Assembly: GCF_958301595.1 (NCBI RefSeq) | Contig: NZ_CATQJU010000001.1 | Coordinates: 1,240,001 to 1,304,000, forward strand | Source of the DNA: Porphyromonas vaginalis | GTDB lineage: Bacteria; Bacteroidota; Bacteroidia; Bacteroidales; Porphyromonadaceae | Direction: 5' to 3' | Length of the DNA: 64,000 nucleotides | In this document: positions 3,001 to 63,085 of the stretch, piece by piece | Layout of the letters: every line of letters begins with the position of its first letter | How positions within the stretch are numbered: the stretch's first letter is position 1 | The notes under the pieces: model-generated | The model's database searches: none | What the model saw: the letters and a program-made list of their open reading frames with translations, nothing else | What the model was told of the DNA's origin: nothing | Made by a program: the position numbers and the translations under genes

Positions 3001-3897
3001 CTAGTGGTTAGCACCGCCCTCTAGGATTGAGCAGATCTCTATGAGCTGCTCCTCAGAGCTAAAGGGGATCGTGATGCTCCCCTTACCATTCTCCTTACAG
3101 CGTAGGGAGACCTTCGTGCCGAAGAAGCTACTCAGCTGCTTAGCTAGAGGAGCGTAGTCATTGCCATGCGAAGCGAGCTTGGAGAGCGTCTGCCTCTTCT
3201 TGTTCGTATTTGTTGGCTCCTCGGTCGGCTCTTGCAGTTCATTGGCCAAAGCCTCGACCTGTCGCACGCTCAGATGCTCCGAGAGCGTGGTCTGGTAAAG
3301 CTTCAGCTGCTGAGCCGGATCGGTCAGGCTCAGTATGGCACGAGCGTGACCCATGTCGATCTTCTTCTCCGTCAGTCCCAGCTGCACCTCTGCGGGCAGG
3401 CGCAGGAGACGCAGGTAGTTACTGATCGACGAGCGGGTCTTGCCCACCTTCTTGGCGAGCTCCTCTTGCGTCCCCTCTGAGTGCTCTAGGAGGCGCTTGT
3501 AGGTGAGTGCTATCTCGATAGCGTTGAGGTCTTCGCGCTGTATGTTTTCGATCAGCGCCATCTCGACCACCTTCTCGTCATCAGCCTTGACGATATATGC
3601 TGGGATAGAGGTCAGGTTGGCGAGCTTAGAGGCGCGCCAGCGACGCTCCCCCGATATGATGAGATGGCGTCCGTCGGTCAGCTCCCGCACCGTGATAGGC
3701 TGCACGATGCCGAGGGCGCGTATGGAGGCGGCGAGCTCCTCGAGACTCTCTGGGTCGAAGTGTGTACGAGGTTGGTCGGGATTAGGCTCGATCTTGTCGA
3801 TGGCTATCTCGCTAATGCTAGAGGAGTTGCTCACATCGCCGAGTAGAGCGTCTAGTCCTCTGCCTATTACTTTGTTCTCTTTCTTCTTGTTTGTCAT
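3001..3897 (-). CDS. parB: ParB/Spo0J chromosome-partitioning protein
   Basis: A 298-residue protein with the ParB N-terminal nuclease-like/CTP-binding fold (about 28-120). It includes the box SGERRWRASKLA and the following ENIQREDLNAIEIA. A helix-turn-helix region follows (EELAKKVGKTRSSISNYLRL, about 140-160). ParB proteins bind parS, load as CTP-dependent sliding clamps and work with ParA to segregate the origin region. The gene follows parA by 24 bp on the same strand. No canonical parS was seen in this window. The nearest repetitive DNA is the 22-bp palindrome array upstream of parA. Confidence 0.95.
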   Translation of the reverse strand: MTNKKKENKVIGRGLDALLGDVSNSSSISEIAIDKIEPNPDQPRTHFDPESLEELAASIRALGIVQPITVRELTDGRHLIISGERRWRASKLANLTSIPAYIVKADDEKVVEMALIENIQREDLNAIEIALTYKRLLEHSEGTQEELAKKVGKTRSSISNYLRLLRLPAEVQLGLTEKKIDMGHARAILSLTDPAQQLKLYQTTLSEHLSVRQVEALANELQEPTEEPTNTNKKRQTLSKLASHGNDYAPLAKQLSSFFGTKVSLRCKENGKGSITIPFSSEEQLIEICSILEGGANH

Positions 3898-3921: not shown

Positions 3922-4701
3922 TTATAGGGCAGCGCGCTGAGCTGTGCGACGGATCAGTTCCTCGGCCAGTTGCAGGTGGTTGATCGCTCCCTTGCTGTCC
4001 GCATCATATAGGAGTGCAGGCAAGCCGTGGCTAGGCGCCTCGCTTAGCTTGACATTGCGCTGTATGACCGTGTCGAAGACGAGCTGCCCAAAGTGCTCCT
4101 TGACCTCGTCGTACACCTGATTAGCCAGTCGCAGACGACTGTCGTACATGGTGAGGAGAAAGCCCTCGATCTCCAGTGCTGGGTTGAGCCGGCTCTTAAT
4201 GATACGTATCGTGTTGAGAAGCTTAGAGATACCCTCCAGTGCAAAGTACTCGCACTGCACGGGAATGATCACCGCATGGCTAGCGACCAAAGCATTGACC
4301 GTGATGATGCCGAGCGAGGGCGAGCAGTCAATGAGAATGTAGTCATACTGATCCACGACAGGGCGTAGCATCTCTCGCATCACGGTCTCGCGGTCCTTGA
4401 GCTGGAGCATCTCTATCTCCGCTCCGACGAGGTCAATGTGAGAGGGGAGTATGAAGAGATTGTCCACATGCGTGGGGCGCACCACCTTGTCGAGCGGTAG
4501 TCCACCTATGAGACACTCGTAGATAGTCTCGCTGAGGGTCGTGGAGTTGACGCCCAGTCCCGACGAAGCGTTTGCCTGCGGGTCGGCATCGACGACGAGC
4601 ACCTTCTTCTCGAGTACAGCCAGAGAGGCTGCGAGGTTGATCGTAGTGGTTGTTTTGCCGACTCCACCCTTCTGATTAGCAAGAGAGATGATTCTACCCA
4701 T
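3922..4701 (-). CDS. parA: ParA/Soj chromosome-partitioning ATPase
   Basis: A 259-residue ParA-family ATPase. It begins MGRIISLANQKGGVGKTTTT, the deviant Walker A motif with the signature lysine. ILIDCSPSLGIITVNAL supplies the A' motif, and VLVVDADPQANAS is the switch region. Length is typical of chromosomal Soj. It forms ATP-dependent dimers on DNA and moves ParB-parS complexes. It is the first gene of the parA-parB-DUF5683-mltD-thioesterase run. A -7 box lies 28 bases upstream, followed by a 940-bp repeat-rich gap. Confidence 0.96.
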   Translation of the reverse strand: MGRIISLANQKGGVGKTTTTINLAASLAVLEKKVLVVDADPQANASSGLGVNSTTLSETIYECLIGGLPLDKVVRPTHVDNLFILPSHIDLVGAEIEMLQLKDRETVMREMLRPVVDQYDYILIDCSPSLGIITVNALVASHAVIIPVQCEYFALEGISKLLNTIRIIKSRLNPALEIEGFLLTMYDSRLRLANQVYDEVKEHFGQLVFDTVIQRNVKLSEAPSHGLPALLYDADSKGAINHLQLAEELIRRTAQRAAL

Positions 4702-4889: not shown

Positions 4890-4894
4890 GTCCG

Positions 4895-4964
4895 TTAGCT
4901 GTTGGCTTTTAGCTGTTGGCTTTTGGCTGTTAGCTTTTGGCTGTTAGCTGTTAGCTGTTGGCTT
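4895..4964. repeat. TTRGCTK heptamer array (10 units)
   Basis: Ten contiguous 7-bp units alternate between TTAGCTG, TTGGCTT, TTGGCTG and TTAGCTT. This lies in the long gap upstream of parA. The same family occurs upstream of menE (49049 onward) and, inverted, at 42128-42162. Confidence 0.92.
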
Positions 4965-4977
4965 TTGTTACTACGCC

Positions 4978-5107: not shown

Positions 5108-5146
5108 AGGGCTACTCGTATCGCGCTGTTTGTGTGATGGATACGA

Positions 5147-5380
5147 GTTCCAAAAGTTGTTCCTCGTTTGGAACTAAAAAGTTCCAAGGGAGGAACTCTT
5201 TAGTTCCAGCAGAGGAACTTTTTAGTTCCAACGGAGGAACTTTTCGGTTCCTAGGTAGGAATTTGGAAGTCCCTACGGAGGATTCTGGATTTCCTACGGA
5301 GGAAAATTAAATTTCCAGCGTTGGAAAAGAAAGTTTCCAGCGTTGGAAATTTATTTTTCCAAGGGTGGAAACTTTTTGGA
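5147..5380. repeat. 22-bp phased palindrome array, TTCC-N6-GGAA type (10 units)
   Basis: GGAA half-sites begin at 5170, 5192, 5214, 5236, 5258, 5280 (here GGAT), 5301, 5323, 5345 and 5367. The step is 22 bp except for one 21-bp step. Each is usually preceded by TTCC and a 6-bp spacer (aaggga, agcaga, aacgga, agcgtt and others). The 8-bp segments between sites vary, with matching changes in both arms (GGAACT/AGTTCC in the left half, GGAAA/TTTCC in the right half). No spacer sequences of CRISPR type are present. Confidence 0.92.
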
Positions 5381-5436
5381 AAGTTGATCGGCGACATCCT
5401 CGCCACAGGGGGAGCTTTCAGAAAGCTCTATAAGCA

Positions 5437-5472
5437 AGTAGCCCCACTCGGTGCGAACCAAGCGGGGCTACT
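5437..5472 (-). terminator. Hairpin copied from the hsp20 terminator
   Basis: AGTAGCCCC (5437-5445) pairs with GGGGCTACT (5464-5472). The same hairpin, with the same loop, lies downstream of the intact hsp20 gene at 8207-8242. It belongs to the duplicated hsp20 segment and may still terminate transcription from the 5647-7776 gene. A separate 17-bp palindrome (GAGCTTTC-A-GAAAGCTC) lies at 5412-5428. Confidence 0.6.
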
Positions 5473-5646: not shown

Positions 5647-7776
5647 TTATAGTTTGATAGTTTTGTTATCTACTTGGAGGATATAGTGAGCTATATCTAA
5701 GGTGGTCGGCAGTGTTAAGGTTGTACTGCCTAGAGCCTCTTCAGAAATAAGTAACTCTCCTGATAAGCTATGCAGTCGGATCTGATGCTTAGTTACATCT
5801 TGGAATGTAATCTGTAGGTAAGATGGTGAAAGCAAGGTTATGTCAAAGCCAAGAGCCTCTATAGTGGGACGTGAAAGGGAAGTAATATTCAAATCCTGTC
5901 TGATAGATAGGGGAAGAGATTGGAATACTTTGTCGTCTTCAGTGCGTAAGTATAAGGTGATGTAAATATCATCAGGCTCGTTTCTGCACAGCTTACGATG
6001 GAGTTTGACTTCATACATAAAGACTCCCGATTCTATCTCTTCTTCTTCTGACAAGAATGTTTCTATGATTTCTCCCTTGTAGATGTAATCTTGTCGTACT
6101 TGATAGCTTGTTTGTGTTTTCCTACAACTCCAATCCCCCTTCCAAGGAGTTACAGAAATGTACTCTAGGCATCCAGATTCATCAGATATGCATTCTGATA
6201 CCATTATTGATCTATTCCCATTATTACTAGATCTAGATTCATCAATAATAGGGATAACTGCTTCTCGGGAGCCATACTTATTTGTTGCTTTTACTTCTAC
6301 TTCAGTATAGCCGTCTGCTCGCAGAGCATGAACTCTAAAGCTTGTATAGTTGAGATGCTCTATACGTCCTTTTCTTTCGTGACCATCTTCGTAGTCTGCG
6401 ACTCTGACTTGAAATTCTTCTGCTCCTAGACTCTCAATACGAACAATGCCATCAACAAAATAAGCTGTCCTAGCAGTCTCCGTAAAGGTTACTTTTATAG
6501 ATCCTGGAGCCGTTGCTACATAGTAGATTTGCTCTCCTGATATCTTTGCCCCCTGACAGATGCCCTCTAGACTGGCTCGTATCATATAGAGACCAGCAGA
6601 GTTGACATAAGCATCGTCTGTATCGAATCGAATGGCCGTAACTAAATCTTGAGACTCAGATAAACTCATCAGATGATACTGCCCATCCTTTCCCAAGTAT
6701 TCTACACGCCATGTGATGGGTGAGATGGGTAGAGATGAGGAGGTCTTATATGTGAATGTGTAGCTAGAGTCATGGCTTAGTATATCTTCGCTACTCTGTC
6801 CTTTCACCCGAATAGTAACCTCATTATTGTGATGTTGCTTCCATCCGACACCCCACATTACTTGAAGCGAGTTGGGGTCGACTTGATGCGCAGTTTGACC
6901 CTTCTTGATCCTCCATGAGAATAGTCCTGACACCTTGTCGGAGAAGCTCATAAAGCTCTCTTTAGATACGACTCTTGGATTGTACAAAGGGAGAGCCTTG
7001 TCACCCATCCAATAGAACTCTCGACCAGCTATTGCCGAGAGCTGTCCTACTTCCTTCCCATTTACTTGCTCAAAAAGAGATAGCCCGCTAGAATCTAGTA
7101 TCTGCTTGTCAAGTATTGTACCCTGAACAATCCTTTTAGAGCTATGAGGAGCTGAAGCTCCCACAGAGGATGCAAAGCCTAAGACATTTCCTATCGCCCG
7201 TAATGTGACTGTCTTTAGATCGTACTGTTGAGCTGTTATAGACTCATTAATAGAACCCTCTACAAACCAATTGAGCTCTCTATTTATTTGTATACGACCA
7301 ACTGCTCCATTTGGGAATTCTGAATTCTTTTTCTCCCCTGTCGCAAATAGTACGGCATCAGGGACTATGGCATCATCAACCTTAAGACAGAATGGTGTAG
7401 CGACATAGGCTAAGTCCTCAGGCATCCCATCCGAGAAGCTGACCTCTATATTGAGCGTTCCCTCCGTTTGCTCGGAGACGGTTAGGTTGTCACCCCACAT
7501 CTTGGCGGCATGCTCTAGTACCTCTTTGTACCCCATCTTCATCGGGACATCATCCTTGTAGACGAGATTTATCTGGAGAGGCTTCCCTCGTTGCATATTT
7601 CTCATAGAGAGTTGTTGCACCTTACGAGGTGAATACGACTCAGTAGGTGTCGTTGCGTTAGAGCTGACAAGACCGTAGACCTGTAGCTCTGTCTGCTGGG
7701 CATATGAGAGGAGGTGGAGTGAGAGGAGTAGCCACCCACACAACAGGGAGCGTCGGAGAGATTTGTGAGCTTTCAT
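5647..7776 (-). CDS. Type IX-secreted protein with degenerate zincin motif
   Basis: A 709-residue protein with a signal peptide (about 9-27, ending YAQQ). The C-terminal 75 residues (from about LGFDITLLSPSYLQITF to the end) resemble a type A sorting domain of the type IX secretion system. Export to the cell surface is therefore expected. Residues about 187-201 (LKTVTLRAIGNVLGF) align with the metzincin helix HExGHxLGF, but both zinc histidines and the catalytic Glu are replaced (R193, A194, N197). If the alignment is right, it is a non-catalytic protease relative, perhaps an adhesin or binding protein. The middle looks like beta-sandwich repeats. Base composition is visibly more AT-rich than its neighbours. 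It sits between an hsp20 remnant and intact hsp20, which suggests insertion into a duplicated locus. Confidence 0.7.
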   Translation of the reverse strand: MKAHKSLRRSLLCGWLLLSLHLLSYAQQTELQVYGLVSSNATTPTESYSPRKVQQLSMRNMQRGKPLQINLVYKDDVPMKMGYKEVLEHAAKMWGDNLTVSEQTEGTLNIEVSFSDGMPEDLAYVATPFCLKVDDAIVPDAVLFATGEKKNSEFPNGAVGRIQINRELNWFVEGSINESITAQQYDLKTVTLRAIGNVLGFASSVGASAPHSSKRIVQGTILDKQILDSSGLSLFEQVNGKEVGQLSAIAGREFYWMGDKALPLYNPRVVSKESFMSFSDKVSGLFSWRIKKGQTAHQVDPNSLQVMWGVGWKQHHNNEVTIRVKGQSSEDILSHDSSYTFTYKTSSSLPISPITWRVEYLGKDGQYHLMSLSESQDLVTAIRFDTDDAYVNSAGLYMIRASLEGICQGAKISGEQIYYVATAPGSIKVTFTETARTAYFVDGIVRIESLGAEEFQVRVADYEDGHERKGRIEHLNYTSFRVHALRADGYTEVEVKATNKYGSREAVIPIIDESRSSNNGNRSIMVSECISDESGCLEYISVTPWKGDWSCRKTQTSYQVRQDYIYKGEIIETFLSEEEEIESGVFMYEVKLHRKLCRNEPDDIYITLYLRTEDDKVFQSLPLSIRQDLNITSLSRPTIEALGFDITLLSPSYLQITFQDVTKHQIRLHSLSGELLISEEALGSTTLTLPTTLDIAHYILQVDNKTIKL

Positions 7777-7985: not shown

Positions 7986-8159
7986 GAGACTGTTGCATAA
8001 AGGCGCATCGCTGTGTTGCTTTCGGGATTCGGCTTCGGTCACATACGTAGGTATGCTCCCTTCAGACCTCACCCTCAGCGCCTTGCGCTTCATCCTTTCT
8101 GCAAAGTCTAGACAATCTTGCAAGCAAGATTGTGAGACTGTTGACTTTGCAACAGTCTC
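7986..8159. mobile_element. MITE copy 1 (174 bp, AAAAG target duplication)
   Basis: Perfect 12-bp terminal inverted repeats GAGACTGTTGCA (7986-7997) and TGCAACAGTCTC (8148-8159) are flanked by AAAAG on both sides (7981-7985, 8160-8164). There is no transposase. Internally it has a CAATCTTGC-AA-GCAAGATTG palindrome and a terminal hairpin at 8134-8159. Copies 2 and 3 lie at 34091-34265 and 47789-47913. An extra CAACAGTCTC lies at 8181-8190. It occupies most of the gap between the 709-residue gene and hsp20. The parent insertion sequence is not in this window. Confidence 0.92.
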
Positions 8160-8206
8160 AAAAGAGCTTGTTGGCTTTTTCAACAGTCTCCTCAGGGGCG
8201 AAAAGT

Positions 8207-15924: not shown

Positions 15925-16318
15925 AGGGCTGACACATGATCTACAATGAGCTCATCGACCTCTCTACTTCTCGCTTGTCACTAATGTGTAGCTCCTGACA
16001 GAGCGATTATGATGCATCATCCGTGACTGGTCAAATTCAATGCTGGCTTGTTACAATAATTTAGACCCGACTACATATCCAAACGGCGCGATGTCGGGGA
16101 AAAGTGATTTCCACGTGGAGATTTTGAAATATCCACGTGGGAAATAAAAAATTCTTCGGAGGAATGAAATGAAACTTCGGAGGAATGAAATGAAACTTCG
16201 GAAGAAATAATTCGCCCCCATGTGGAAAATAAAAAATATCCACGTGGAGATTTGAGATTCCCCACGTGGATATTCGAGAAAGGAGGGAAGCGGACGAATT
16301 TCCCTGTAAAGATATGTT
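15925..16318. repeat. Long interspersed repeat, copy A (contains a palindrome array)
   Basis: This fills most of the 650-bp gap between DUF4270 and DUF4857 genes. It begins near GGGCTGACACAT (about 15926), passes through TGTGTAGCTCCTGACAGAG and GATTATGATGC, then TTACAATAATTTAGA (about 16050) and ACTACATATC. It encloses the CCACGTGG array and ends CGGACGAATTTCCC...AAAGATATGT. The right part recurs at 28768-29040 and, collapsed, at 41940-42059. The left part recurs at 41806-41960 and 42163-42260. No transposase is present. Confidence 0.85.
16111..16269. repeat. 22-bp phased palindrome array, CCACGTGG type (8 units)
   Basis: CCACGTGG cores start at 16111, 16133, 16218 (CCATGTGG), 16240 and 16262. 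Three TTCGGAGGAA-type units (16155, 16176, 16197) fill the middle. Steps are 21-22 bp throughout. It is nearly identical to the array at 28832-28990. Confidence 0.9.
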
Positions 16319-16319
16319 A

Positions 16320-16354
16320 TTAGAGATTAGAGGTTAGAAGTTAGAGATTAGAGG
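16320..16354. repeat. TTAGAGR heptamer array (5 units)
   Basis: Contiguous units TTAGAGA, TTAGAGG, TTAGAAG, TTAGAGA and TTAGAGG directly follow interspersed-repeat copy A. The same arrangement follows the copies at 28.8 and 42.0 kb. Confidence 0.9.
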
Positions 16355-28767: not shown

Positions 28768-29040
28768 GTTGTTACAATAATTTAGATCCGACTACATGTC
28801 GATACGGAGTTGTATCGGGGAAAAGTGATTTCCACGTGGATATTTCGAAATTCCCACGTGGAGAATAAAAAATTCTTCGGAGGAATGAAATGAAACTTCG
28901 GAGGAATGAAATGAAACTTCGGAAGAAATGAATCACGCCCACGTGGAAAATAAAAAATATCCACGTGGAGATTTGAGATTCCCCACGTGGATGTTCGAGA
29001 AAGGAGGGTGTCGGACGAATTTCCCCGTAAAGATATGTAA
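28768..29040. repeat. Long interspersed repeat, copy B (contains a palindrome array)
   Basis: It begins GTTACAATAATTTAGA, runs through ACTACATGTC and the CCACGTGG array, and ends CGGACGAATTTCCC...AAAGATATGTAA. It is the same as 16050-16318 and in the same orientation. It lacks the left 120 bp of copy A. It lies between the TonB-receptor promoter and the mscL terminator, and with copy A it brackets the nine-gene locus. Confidence 0.88.
28832..28990. repeat. 22-bp phased palindrome array, CCACGTGG type (8 units)
   Basis: CCACGTGG starts at 28832, 28854, 28939, 28961 and 28983. TTCGGAGGAA-type units start at 28876, 28897 and 28918. Unit order and spacing are the same as in the 16-kb array. Confidence 0.92.
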
Positions 29041-29082
29041 ATAGAGATTAGAGGTTAGAGGTTAGAAGTTAGAGGTTAGAGA
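29041..29082. repeat. TTAGAGR heptamer array (6 units)
   Basis: ATAGAGA followed by TTAGAGG, TTAGAGG, TTAGAAG, TTAGAGG and TTAGAGA. It directly follows interspersed-repeat copy B. Confidence 0.9.
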
Positions 29083-42093: not shown

Positions 42094-42127
42094 TCCGATC
42101 ACTCTGATAGCTCCGATGGTTCCGATA

Positions 42128-42162
42128 GCTAACAGTCAATAGCTAACAGCCAACAGCCAATC
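42128..42162. repeat. Inverted TTRGCTK heptamer array (5 units)
   Basis: GCTAACA, GTCAATA, GCTAACA, GCCAACA and GCCAATC are the reverse complement of the TTAGCTG/TTGGCTG family at 4895 and 49049. Confidence 0.85.
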
Positions 42163-47949: not shown

Positions 47950-49047
47950 TTAGTGCGGAGAGGCGGTGGAGCTGAGGAGCTGCTGGAGGGCGCGACGGTC
48001 GAGCTTGCCGTTGTCGTTGTGCGGTAGCTGCGCTACGCAGCGGATCTCTTTGGGGCGGTGATAGGGAGGTAGGAGCTGTTCGCACGTTTCGTCTAGCCGC
48101 TTCGCCAAAGCTTCGGGGAGGCTGTCGCTTTCTAGTACGAGTACGAGCTTTTGTCCTAGCGCAGCATCGGCTACCCAGCTGATGGCGAGCGGTACGTCTA
48201 GTGTCGCAGAGAGCTTGCGCTCGATCGGCTCGGGGCTGATCTTGACACCGCCACTATTGATCATGTTATCGGCTCGACCCTCTATGGTAAAGCCGCCATC
48301 GGGGTGTAGCTCGACGAGGTCATGGGTCGTGAGGACGGGACCTTCGGGATAGAGCAGGCGATCCTCGATGATGAGTTCGCCTTCGGAGCCTTGGGAGAGA
48401 TGTACCCCCTCGAGGGGATAGAAGAGGGGAGAGGCGTGGGGGCCGTTGAGCCGTCGCAGGGCGATGTGCGAGATGGTCTCGGTCATGCCGTAGGTGGCGT
48501 AAGCTGCTACGGGTAGCGTGCTGAGCTGCGCCTCCACAGTGGGATGAATGGCTCCGCCCCCGATGATCAGTTGCTCTGCTTGGCTGAGTAGCTCACGCTC
48601 CTCAGGCACCTCCAGTGTGTGGTGTAGTTGAAGGGGTACAAGCGAGACGAAGTGCGGTGCTACGCTGAGTGTCGCCAGCGGATGACTCGAGGGAGGCACG
48701 ACGATTAGCTCGGCACCGGCGAGCAATGCGCGTACCACCATCATCTTAGCACCTATGTAGCGCAGATCCATCGCTAGGAGAAGCCGTGTGCTAGCTTCGA
48801 TCTGAAAGTAGCGGTTGCTCCTGAGTCCGCTCCTTCGCATAGCGCACTTCGTCAGTCTGATCCGCTTAGGGGTGCCCGTTGAGCCAGAGGTCTGGACGGT
48901 CACATACTCCTCTTCGCTCCACCACTCCCCGAGAAAGGCGAGGAGTGGCTGTAGCACGGCTCTGCGCTCGGAGGTTAGCCCCTGAGCGAACGGCTCTAAG
49001 CTCTCCGCATCTACTCGTGCGCTATCTATATATAGGTGCTCGGACAT
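47950..49047 (-). CDS. menE: o-Succinylbenzoate-CoA ligase MenE
   Basis: A 365-residue AMP-forming ligase, short as usual in Bacteroidetes MenE. The P-loop is VQTSGSTGTPKRIRL. The adenylation core shows AYATYGMTETISHIALR, and the hinge region IEGRADNMINSGGVKI is followed by the small C-terminal domain ending in DNGKLDRRAL, which contains the catalytic Lys. It activates o-succinylbenzoate to its CoA ester in menaquinone synthesis. It is the last gene of the menFDBCE run. A TTGGCTG heptamer array begins 2 bases upstream of its ATG. Confidence 0.94.
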   Translation of the reverse strand: MSEHLYIDSARVDAESLEPFAQGLTSERRAVLQPLLAFLGEWWSEEEYVTVQTSGSTGTPKRIRLTKCAMRRSGLRSNRYFQIEASTRLLLAMDLRYIGAKMMVVRALLAGAELIVVPPSSHPLATLSVAPHFVSLVPLQLHHTLEVPEERELLSQAEQLIIGGGAIHPTVEAQLSTLPVAAYATYGMTETISHIALRRLNGPHASPLFYPLEGVHLSQGSEGELIIEDRLLYPEGPVLTTHDLVELHPDGGFTIEGRADNMINSGGVKISPEPIERKLSATLDVPLAISWVADAALGQKLVLVLESDSLPEALAKRLDETCEQLLPPYHRPKEIRCVAQLPHNDNGKLDRRALQQLLSSTASPH

Positions 49048-49048
49048 G

Positions 49049-49115
49049 TTGGCTGTTGGCTGTTAGCTCTTGGCTGTTGGCTGTTGTTGGCTAAAAGCTA
49101 ACGGCCAAAAGCCAA
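49049..49115. repeat. TTRGCTK heptamer array with inverted half, in the menE leader
   Basis: TTGGCTG, TTGGCTG, TTAGCTC, TTGGCTG, TTGGCTG, then TTG and TTGGCTA, followed by the inverse orientation (GCTAACG, GCCAAAA, GCCAATT). It fills the menC-menE spacer and can fold on itself. The transcribed leader ends right at the menE start codon. Confidence 0.88.
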
Positions 49116-56173: not shown

Positions 56174-56178
56174 GGCGG

Positions 56179-56227
56179 TTAGAGGTTAGAAATTAGAGGT
56201 TAGAAGTTAGAGATTAGAGGTTAGAGG
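56179..56227. repeat. TTAGAGR heptamer array (7 units) upstream of rel
   Basis: Units TTAGAGG, TTAGAAA, TTAGAGG, TTAGAAG, TTAGAGA, TTAGAGG and TTAGAGG lie just upstream of the rel ATG (56173). They form the left arm of a long inverted repeat with 56259-56300. Confidence 0.92.
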
Positions 56228-56258
56228 GGAGAGAAGCTAGGAAGGGTTGGAACCAAAG

Positions 56259-56300
56259 TCTAACCTCTAATTTCTAATCTCTAACTTCTAATCTCTAATT
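56259..56300. repeat. Inverted TTAGAGR heptamer array (6 units) abutting the folK stop
   Basis: TCTAACC, TCTAATT, TCTAATC, TCTAACT, TCTAATC and TCTAATT end one base before the folK stop codon (56301-56303). With the array at 56179-56227 it gives two arms of about 42 bp around a 31-bp loop. Confidence 0.92.
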
Positions 56301-56681
56301 CTACAACTCATCTAGCTCTTCTAGTCCTGCGACGACATAGGGGCGGACCATATCTTGTGGCTTGTAGACCTCATCATTCCACTCGATGATGTCTAGATCC
56401 ATCGGTATGATACCCTCTTCGTCGTCATCGTGGTCACGTCCGAGCTTAGTCTCGAGCTTCTTGAGCTTAGCCTCTAGCGTCTCTCTATCTAGTTCGGTCT
56501 CAAAGAGCGCGATCAGATTGAGAAAGGCCTTAGCATCCTCGGGCATATCCATAGGCTCCGTGAGCTGAGGCGTCGAAAAGCGTATCGTGGGGAAGTGCTT
56601 CGTGAGTATCTCCATCACCTCCTTAACGTTGGCCGTGCGATGCTCATTACTGCCTATGCTGATGATCGCTTTGTTTTTCAT
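56301..56681 (-). CDS. folK: Short FolK-like (HPPK) protein
   Basis: A 126-residue protein resembling 6-hydroxymethyl-7,8-dihydropterin pyrophosphokinase. The start AIISIGSNEHRTANV carries the GSN motif, and IPMDLDIIEWND the two metal-binding Asp residues. It is about 30 residues shorter than typical HPPK. The basic loop R-x-GPR before DLDI is replaced by the acidic GRDHDDDEEGI, so activity is uncertain. It follows the DAHP synthase gene by 24 bp. Confidence 0.7.
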   Translation of the reverse strand: MKNKAIISIGSNEHRTANVKEVMEILTKHFPTIRFSTPQLTEPMDMPEDAKAFLNLIALFETELDRETLEAKLKKLETKLGRDHDDDEEGIIPMDLDIIEWNDEVYKPQDMVRPYVVAGLEELDEL

Positions 56682-57891: not shown

Positions 57892-58287
57892 GTGTCTGGC
57901 GGGAGGGGTGTCCGTTGTAGTACAGCGACACGACTTCTGTAGGGACGCACGATCTGTGCGTCCGTTGTGTTAAAGATTACAGCATTGTTGTTTTAACGAG
58001 GACGGACGCTCAGATCGAGCGTCCCTACAGGAGTCGTAGGTGCGTGCGTCCGTTGTGTCAAAGGTTACAGCATTGTGGTTTTAACGAGGACGGACGCTCA
58101 GATCGAGCGTCCCTACAGGAGTCGTAGGTGCGTGCGTCCGTTGTGTCAAAGGTTACAGCATTGTGGTTTTAACGAGGACGGACGCTCAGATCGAGCGTCC
58201 CTACAGGAGTCGTAGGTGCGTGCGTTCGTTGTGTCAAAGGTTACTGCGTCAGGCTAGTTCGACAACGGACGCCCTCCCGCTAGACAC
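57892..58287. repeat. Repeat cassette bounded by inverted 26-27-bp ends
   Basis: The left end (57892-57918, GTGTCTGGCGGGAGGG then GTGTCCGTTGT) and right end (58262-58287, ACAACGGACGCCCTCC then CGCTAGACAC) are inverted copies. The right end is the exact inverse of 4864-4889. Near the left end is a palindrome GGACGCAC-N5-GTGCGTCC (57943-57963). The cassette fills the gap between the divergent DAHP synthase and exporter promoters. Confidence 0.85.
57956..58244. repeat. 88-bp tandem repeat (3.3 copies)
   Basis: Units begin GTGCGTCCGTTGTG at 57956, 58044, 58132 and 58220 (partial), an exact 88-bp period. Each full unit contains the palindrome GGACGCTC-N5-GAGCGTCC (58004, 58092, 58180). Units 2 and 3 are identical by eye, and unit 1 has a few changes. 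The unit interior is the inverse of 5008-5052. Confidence 0.93.
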
Positions 58288-62901: not shown

Positions 62902-62970
62902 CCGACCGAAGATTATTTATAGCCCTACTTCTGTCTGGCTCGTTCGGCTAAATTGCTGAGCCGATGATGT

Positions 62971-63085
62971 TTTCCAAAAACTTTCCACGCTTGGAAAAAT
63001 AAATTTCCAAGGGAGGAAAATAAAATTTCCAAGGGAGGAAAATAAGTTTTCCAACGGAGGAAAAGTTTCTTTCCAACGGAGGAAA
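62971..63085. repeat. 22-bp phased palindrome array, TTCC-N6-GGAA type (5 units)
   Basis: GGAA starts at 62993, 63015, 63037, 63059 and 63081, an exact 22-bp step. Each is preceded by TTCC and a 6-bp spacer (acgctt, aaggga, aaggga, aacgga, aacgga). It lies inside the exporter operon, between the adaptor stop and the TolC-family start, so it is probably transcribed. It is the same family as 5147-5380. Confidence 0.92.

Follow-up and report, generated by a model that had tools for sequence, protein, structure and literature searches.

The array of short palindromes upstream of parA and parB in Porphyromonas vaginalis raises the question of whether it serves the partition genes beside which it stands or is one instance of something more widespread. 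The window analyzed here, a stretch of 64,000 nucleotides, corresponds to positions 1,240,001-1,304,000 of the 2.52-Mb genome, and all coordinates without a contig name refer to it. It contains parB (3001..3897, minus strand; Pfam ParB_N, HTH_ParB, and ParB_C), parA (3922..4701, minus strand; Pfam AAA_31), and the array at 5160-5370, followed by an open-reading frame of 709 amino acids without a Pfam match (5647..7776, minus strand), whose 3′ end points at the array. The array starts 458 bp from parA, in line with the approximately 450 bp given in an earlier note on this DNA, and 276 bp separate its other edge from the 3′ end of the 709-residue frame; a terminator-like hairpin, recognized by eye, sits between the two at 5438..5471.

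Ten units make up the array, nine of them perfect TTCC-N6-GGAA palindromes and one decayed, with starts at 5160, 5182, 5204, 5226, 5248, 5270, 5291, 5313, 5335, and 5357. All steps are 22 bp with the sole exception of 5270 to 5291, which is 21 bp, as the earlier note had described. Its further statement that the sites are phased at exactly two helical turns holds for the strictness of the 22-bp period and fails for the turns, since two turns of relaxed B-DNA take ~21 bp, and nine steps of 22 bp drift by almost one turn. The A-end (5116..5159, plus strand) consists of a TCGTAT...ATACGA inverted repeat and then an outer half-site, TTCC at 5148-5151, 12 bp ahead of the first unit; it is similar across 25 A-ends of this genome, and the DNA outside it is unrelated. 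Next come five units 22 bp apart (5160..5261), of which four are type A with GTTCC-N6-GGAAC arms while the fifth has mixed arms, then the decayed sixth unit (5270..5283; TCCC-TACGGA-GGAT, TCCCTACGGAGGAT), and finally four type-B units with TTTCC-N6-GGAAA arms, again 22 bp apart (5291..5370). The paired arm changes reported previously, GGAACT/AGTTCC in the left part and GGAAA/TTTCC in the right, are thus present as described. The B-end (5371..5383, minus strand), with its outer half-site GGAA at 5378-5381, is a variant copy that falls outside the stricter B-end pattern covering nine ends.

In the window as a whole, TTCCN6GGAA occurs at 14 sites compared to 0.64 expected by shuffling, and 14 sites were reached in none of 100 shuffles. 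When the window was scanned for inverted symmetry (periods 16-33), two period-22 clusters rose above the null, the array upstream of parA and the stretch 62990-63078. The latter belongs to a second array (62969..63084, plus strand) made of a B-end and then five type-B units (62983-63084), flanked by genes that by eye resemble those for an efflux adaptor and an outer-membrane factor. Outside period 22, the same scan returned 8099-8195 at period 24 and the array upstream of parA again at period 33; the period-24 inverted symmetry at 8099-8195 was slightly above the null of six simulations.

The earlier note had likened the array to centromere-type or nucleoid-protein sites, and its position 458 bp upstream of parA would suit a centromere used by ParB or another partition protein. 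Three observations led us to dismiss this role. About 40 further arrays are dispersed over other parts of this chromosome. A canonical parS is missing from the window, as had been stated, with no match at up to 3 mismatches, and a near-canonical parS, TGTTTCACGTGAAACG, with 1 mismatch, is located elsewhere, at C1:825308-825323 (L181). The tie to parA is also not kept in relatives: orthologous parA genes are preceded by 10 units here (9 perfect), 6 in relative G020, and 4 in G013, while in G002 the A-end is kept with different units, and in G018, where the neighborhood is rearranged, there is no array, so that the array upstream of parA is absent or rebuilt in two of four close relatives. A partition function is therefore highly improbable, and the link of the array to parAB is accidental.

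Across this genome, the 22-bp pattern yields 160 pairs, 112 triples, and 70 quadruples of units, and the arrays amount to 0.18% of the genome. We read 42 clusters covering 156 of the 160 pairs, the other four pairs lying in loci outside those read; the cluster pairs L077/L078 and L086/L076 are halves of arrays split by a transposon. Each unit has inverted 5-6-bp arms flanking a variable 6-bp spacer, of which 39 forms were found when a form and its reverse complement are counted once. All 160 TTCC-N6-GGAA pairs lie at exactly 22 bp, with none for the reversed-pattern control. When the linker was freed to 0-30 bp, a search of this genome that is not conditioned on the 22-bp period, the number of pairs rose only to 167, and the additional ones, among the matches listed, skip one unit. 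In other genomes, loci were chosen for a match to the 22-bp pattern, which conditions the spacing counts there. Among 201 units of this genome, 186 have complementary bases next to TTCC and GGAA, where independence would give 95.7, and complementarity across the linker was found in 144 of 156 cases compared to 77.2; because units share descent, the flank-complementarity counts are descriptive. They bear out the earlier observation that the palindrome is kept while spacers and linkers vary, with units that are not identical and arms that co-vary.

The borders of the arrays are as informative as their interior. A complete element runs from an A-end through a variable number of 22-bp units to a B-end, and many copies have one recognizable end or none. 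The type-A end (25 cases) is a similar stretch of ~44 bp, TCGTATCGtgCTG...ATACGAGTTCCAAAAaTaG, beyond which the DNA is unrelated, and the type-B end (9 cases) is GTTTTCCAAAAAC or a near variant. At both ends, an outer half-site, usually 11-12 bp ahead of the first unit, replaces the regular inverted half-site, and such a cap at an offset of 10-12 was present at 40 of 79 array ends in this genome, at 45 of 101 in P. uenonis and a metagenome-assembled genome (MAG) taken together, at 8 of 21 in P. levii, at 10 of 41 in RUG12444, and at only 1 of 30 in other genomes. When the ends are compared as the terminal inverted repeats of a MITE would be, the outer half-sites TTCC/GGAA are present at both, and the A and B ends are otherwise unlike. 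Conserved ends with sharp borders and caps indicate that the arrays are discrete elements with a polarity, many of them truncated. The arrays of RUG12444 also seem to have two unlike ends, one capped, GAGTTCCAGAAAA, and the other reading GTCGAG or similar.

Where type A changes to type B, the N6 unit is symmetric on both sides in eight direct switches, and at least three further switches (L065, L066, and L069) have an asymmetric unit and symmetric linkers; N6 is thus favored, though not firmly, as the center of symmetry by eight switches, with at least three to the contrary. At L051, L083, and L085, TCCC/GGGA units stand beside TTCC units, at L051 on one 22-bp grid, which indicates that half-sites change in blocks. 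TCCC/GGGA units at the same geometry were found in one of 393 genomes, in one array of this genome alone.

Given these borders and this dispersal, the feature is on balance probably a member of a dispersed family of intergenic repeats, non-coding and defined by their ends, of a REP/MITE-like kind. Comparison with G020 is consistent with this, as 12 of its 19 array loci have a counterpart among the array loci of this genome (8 by both flanks, 4 by one flank), and unit number differs in seven of the eight two-flank pairs, indicating that arrays are mostly inherited, with units gained and lost. The seven unmatched arrays could reflect gain, loss, or a partner outside the loci read. For the first array of locus L080 (at 2493-2572 within L080), the left flank lies at one G020 array and the right flank at another (L265, L269), ~115 kb apart, which places a rearrangement border within an array. 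Against the repeat-element reading, no cognate transposase was found, and arms and period are conserved across several Bacteroidales lineages beyond what a neutral repeat needs.

The breadth of that conservation was seen in a scan for four perfect units in 84,980 species genomes (one genome per species, contigs of at least 3,000 bases; near relatives may be missing), which returned 92 stretches in 16 genomes, all Bacteroidales (Porphyromonas, Parabacteroides, Prevotella, and uncultured kin), with arms and linkers that vary from lineage to lineage. Arrays therefore occur in related genomes, and three perfect units in a row were found in 12 of the 61 genomes of a search among relatives, this genome included. 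One relative, G025, has arrays of 3-4 TTTCCACNNGTGGAAA-like units inside repeated stretches of up to ~670 bp. No IMG/VR viral contig had four perfect units. We found no name for this Bacteroidales repeat in the open-access literature, and the excerpted text of PMC5771137 mentions no such repeat.

The genes around the arrays bear on two functional explanations. The 42 clusters lie in 16 convergent, 22 tandem, and 4 divergent gaps, and without ten loci interrupted by or adjoining mobile elements the numbers are 13, 17, and 2 (n = 32). Because convergent and divergent pairs are equally many on a circular chromosome, chance would seldom give 13 versus 2 (one-sided binomial p = 0.004 for these 32 loci). 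The gene calls came from a crude hexamer scorer, making the contexts approximate; for L060, counted as tandem, the left gene could not be called. Two of the 42 clusters, L054 and again L060, are overlapped by an open-reading frame that this scorer called. A terminator-like hairpin precedes the array at 18 of 40 gene 3′ ends compared to 1 of 15 on 5′ sides, in a simple scan restricted to the 32 loci that have no mobile element.

If the arrays acted as terminators, insulators, or mRNA-stabilizing hairpins, both the excess of convergent gaps and the folding of array RNA, which is far better than that of shuffled sequence (z = -10.3 on one strand and -11.8 on the other), would be expected. The z-scores, however, are a trivial consequence of repeated palindromes, and with a hairpin already ahead of the array at 18 of 40 3′ ends, arrays are not needed there as a first terminator. 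By eye, there was no clear bias for transcripts to enter arrays from one end, and no Rfam family was matched at its gathering score, the 13 weak matches below the cut-off being 12 microRNA models and one riboswitch. We regard this hairpin explanation as quite unlikely.

The same excess of convergent gaps, where supercoils meet, would also fit site arrays for a Bacteroidales DNA-binding protein, whether a nucleoid protein, a gyrase-type organizer, or a regulator, bound as a dimer to each palindrome with neighbors cooperating at 22 bp. Such a protein would account for the strict spacing, for arms that change together with symmetry kept, and for the same geometry in 16 Bacteroidales genomes. It is harder to reconcile with orthologous loci at which unit number, and even presence, varies, and repeats copied from one another hold their spacing without selection. 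Protein binding is accordingly a possible, though doubtful, explanation, and a dedicated host function is not needed for the data.

A use of the arrays by another agent is nevertheless evident, as several of them are cut by a mobile element whose left end is GGAACTATTAGG. Six right and five left ends of this transposon are present in this genome. Its five two-ended copies, ranging from 3.1 to ~13.9 kb, all lie inside arrays at a GGAACT arm (junction between GGAACT and ATTAGG), each at one unit; thus five of six copies are in arrays, which make up so little of the genome, and copy 6 is outside arrays. Two adjacent tyrosine recombinase genes follow the left end in four of the five two-ended copies. 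In copy 1 these match PF00589 twice, with SAM_5 and Arm-DNA-bind_5 domains, and are accompanied by a VapE-like gene, a primase-type gene (Toprim_2/Zn_ribbon_DnaG), and a Mob_Pre relaxase; the two integrases are 28% identical to each other over 398 aa (E = 3e-42). Copy 4, a derivative of 3.1 kb, has no integrases. At L196 (G000:C1:1953900-1958100), the 3.1-kb derivative in an array has both transposon ends and one called gene, by eye encoding a secreted leucine-rich-repeat-like protein. An insertion sequence with a 478-aa transposase and the ends TGTCCTCTTCCTGAAAAAAGTACAC was also seen in or adjoining arrays at four places (L056, L079, L081, and L183).

In related genomes, a close copy of the transposon abuts an array in G002, an internally deleted copy abuts one in G020, and a Porphyromonas MAG has an intact, empty array at the locus of copy 5. 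Copies at single units together with an empty array in a relative indicate that the arrays act as landing pads: a mobilizable transposon uses single array units as integration sites. At least 23 integrase loci were recovered from 393 genomes in a search that scored at most the best 4 candidates per genome, making copy numbers lower bounds. Six of these loci have at least 86% identity and 17 have at most 68%; array dimers accompany five of the six and none of the 17. The five include loci in G013 and in G095, a genome of another family whose array, TTTCCCATCGGGGAAACTATTT, also has a 22-bp period, and the sixth is copy 6. That copy, together with the more distant integrase relatives not at arrays, counts against the favored explanation. 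A weak further case is array L114 of Prevotella brunnea, near which lies a truncated relative of the integrase (80% over 118 aa) with no recognizable end. The transposon was rejected as the creator of the arrays, as most arrays read are without it. G020, with 46 triples, gave no integrase match at 1e-80 among the best 4 of 7 candidates, although its deleted transposon remnant means that it cannot count as a genome with arrays and no transposon.

At both borders of all five copies, the sequence is an 11-bp N5+GGAACT, with N5 equal on the two sides in copies 3 and 4 and different in copies 1, 2, and 5. The left spacer of copy 1, AAGAGG, is the usual spacer of the A-end unit, so its right spacer probably came with the element. 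Such an N5 pattern has the look of the coupling sequences of tyrosine-recombinase transposons such as Tn916 and CTnDOT. A more far-reaching explanation would make the arrays Bacteroidales-wide tandem recombination sites, each palindrome being a core site with an exchangeable 6-bp spacer and its symmetry kept for a recombinase, resident or transposon-borne, that reads both arms, with spacers, units, and cargo shuffled among the approximately forty sites; we consider this unlikely.

If the arrays are instead a repeat element that a transposon exploits, the following course can be proposed. The arrays would have spread earlier and may persist in harmless gaps, often behind terminators, with unit number changing as neighboring units recombine or slip. 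The integrase of the transposon would read a unit as its core site, composed of arm, spacer, and arm, and would join the element end to the GGAACT arm, presumably accepting any type-A unit as attB, and the element could bring along a 5-6-bp spacer from its previous site.

Several known systems resemble parts of this arrangement. REPs and BIMEs lie outside genes in arrays to which several proteins bind, and their description as extragenic palindromes in regular composite arrays, with many species-specific copies, applies to the arrays here as well (PMC2817692). Unlike them, the arrays have no GTAG-type head that was seen, form an exact 22-bp tandem of short arms, and have two unlike ends. The Y1 transposase family PF01797 had no match in this genome or in G002 and two each in G013 and G020; with none in this genome, the arrays are not REPs by the RAYT criterion, and a RAYT-driven REP was ruled out. 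Palindromic intergenic repeats are already known as mobile-element targets, since, according to the excerpted text of PMC1525189, specific insertion sequences insert into REPs, just as the element described here enters intergenic palindromic repeats; unlike those insertion sequences, the inserter here is a mobilizable transposon with tyrosine recombinases.

A closer counterpart to the transposon is the group MTnPi1-3 of Prevotella intermedia, which in the excerpts of PMC4755523 have two tandem integrases, a relaxase, a primase, and an 11-bp att, most copies excising as circles. The transposon here shares the two tandem integrases, the relaxase, and a primase family protein, and its 11-bp border sequence agrees with the att in length. 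The MTnPi1-3 integrases are reported there to lack significant mutual homology, in contrast to the identity between the two integrases here, and these excerpts make no mention of arrays as MTnPi1-3 targets. The same excerpts describe PINSR of P. intermedia, 177-184 intergenic non-coding repeats with a 188-bp consensus, about three quarters of them common to two strains, which resemble the arrays as intergenic non-coding repeats when compared by description only. The BrickBuilt MITE of P. gingivalis, which in the excerpted text of PMC4596501 has a 23-nt unit and IS5-type terminal repeats, resembles the arrays as an intergenic minisatellite element with two unlike flanks and a variable unit number. 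Identity with BrickBuilt was rejected because its 23-nt unit is unrelated, with 9 of 23 mismatches in the best of the 42 arrays. That text also gives 22-nt tandem direct repeats for P. gingivalis W83, the same unit length as here in a comparison by length. The strict 22-bp geometry, the polar ends, and the use as transposon landing pads are the noteworthy traits of the repeat family described here.

If this reading is true, it would account for a Bacteroidales repeat without a found name, it would mean that cargo-carrying mobilizable transposons have a set repertoire of safe places to land in the chromosome, and it would make the arrays points at which recombination can rearrange chromosomes. 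Past insertions could also be traced through the variable number of units and through the spacers that remain at joints.

Other repeats were observed in the window. A second dispersed repeat, at 16100-16290 and 28820-28995, has CCACGTGG palindromes, spaced by 22 bp, around CTTCGGAGGAATGAAATGAAA repeats of 21 bp, and in G002 units similar to this CCACGTGG/CTTCGGAGGAATGAAATGAAA repeat take the place of the array ahead of parA. Contig C2 of G000, whose 5,386 bases equal the length of the phiX174 sequencing control, is probably a spike-in left in the assembly. Tandem repeats of 7 bp (TTAGAGG and TGTTGGC types), intergenic in appearance, were found at 706-741, 4894-4967, 16319-16353, 29042-29081, 42125-42160, 49047-49086, and 56177-56303. 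At 57956-58244, an 88-bp unit is present in 3.3 copies that are 98% alike, and parts of its motif recur near some arrays.
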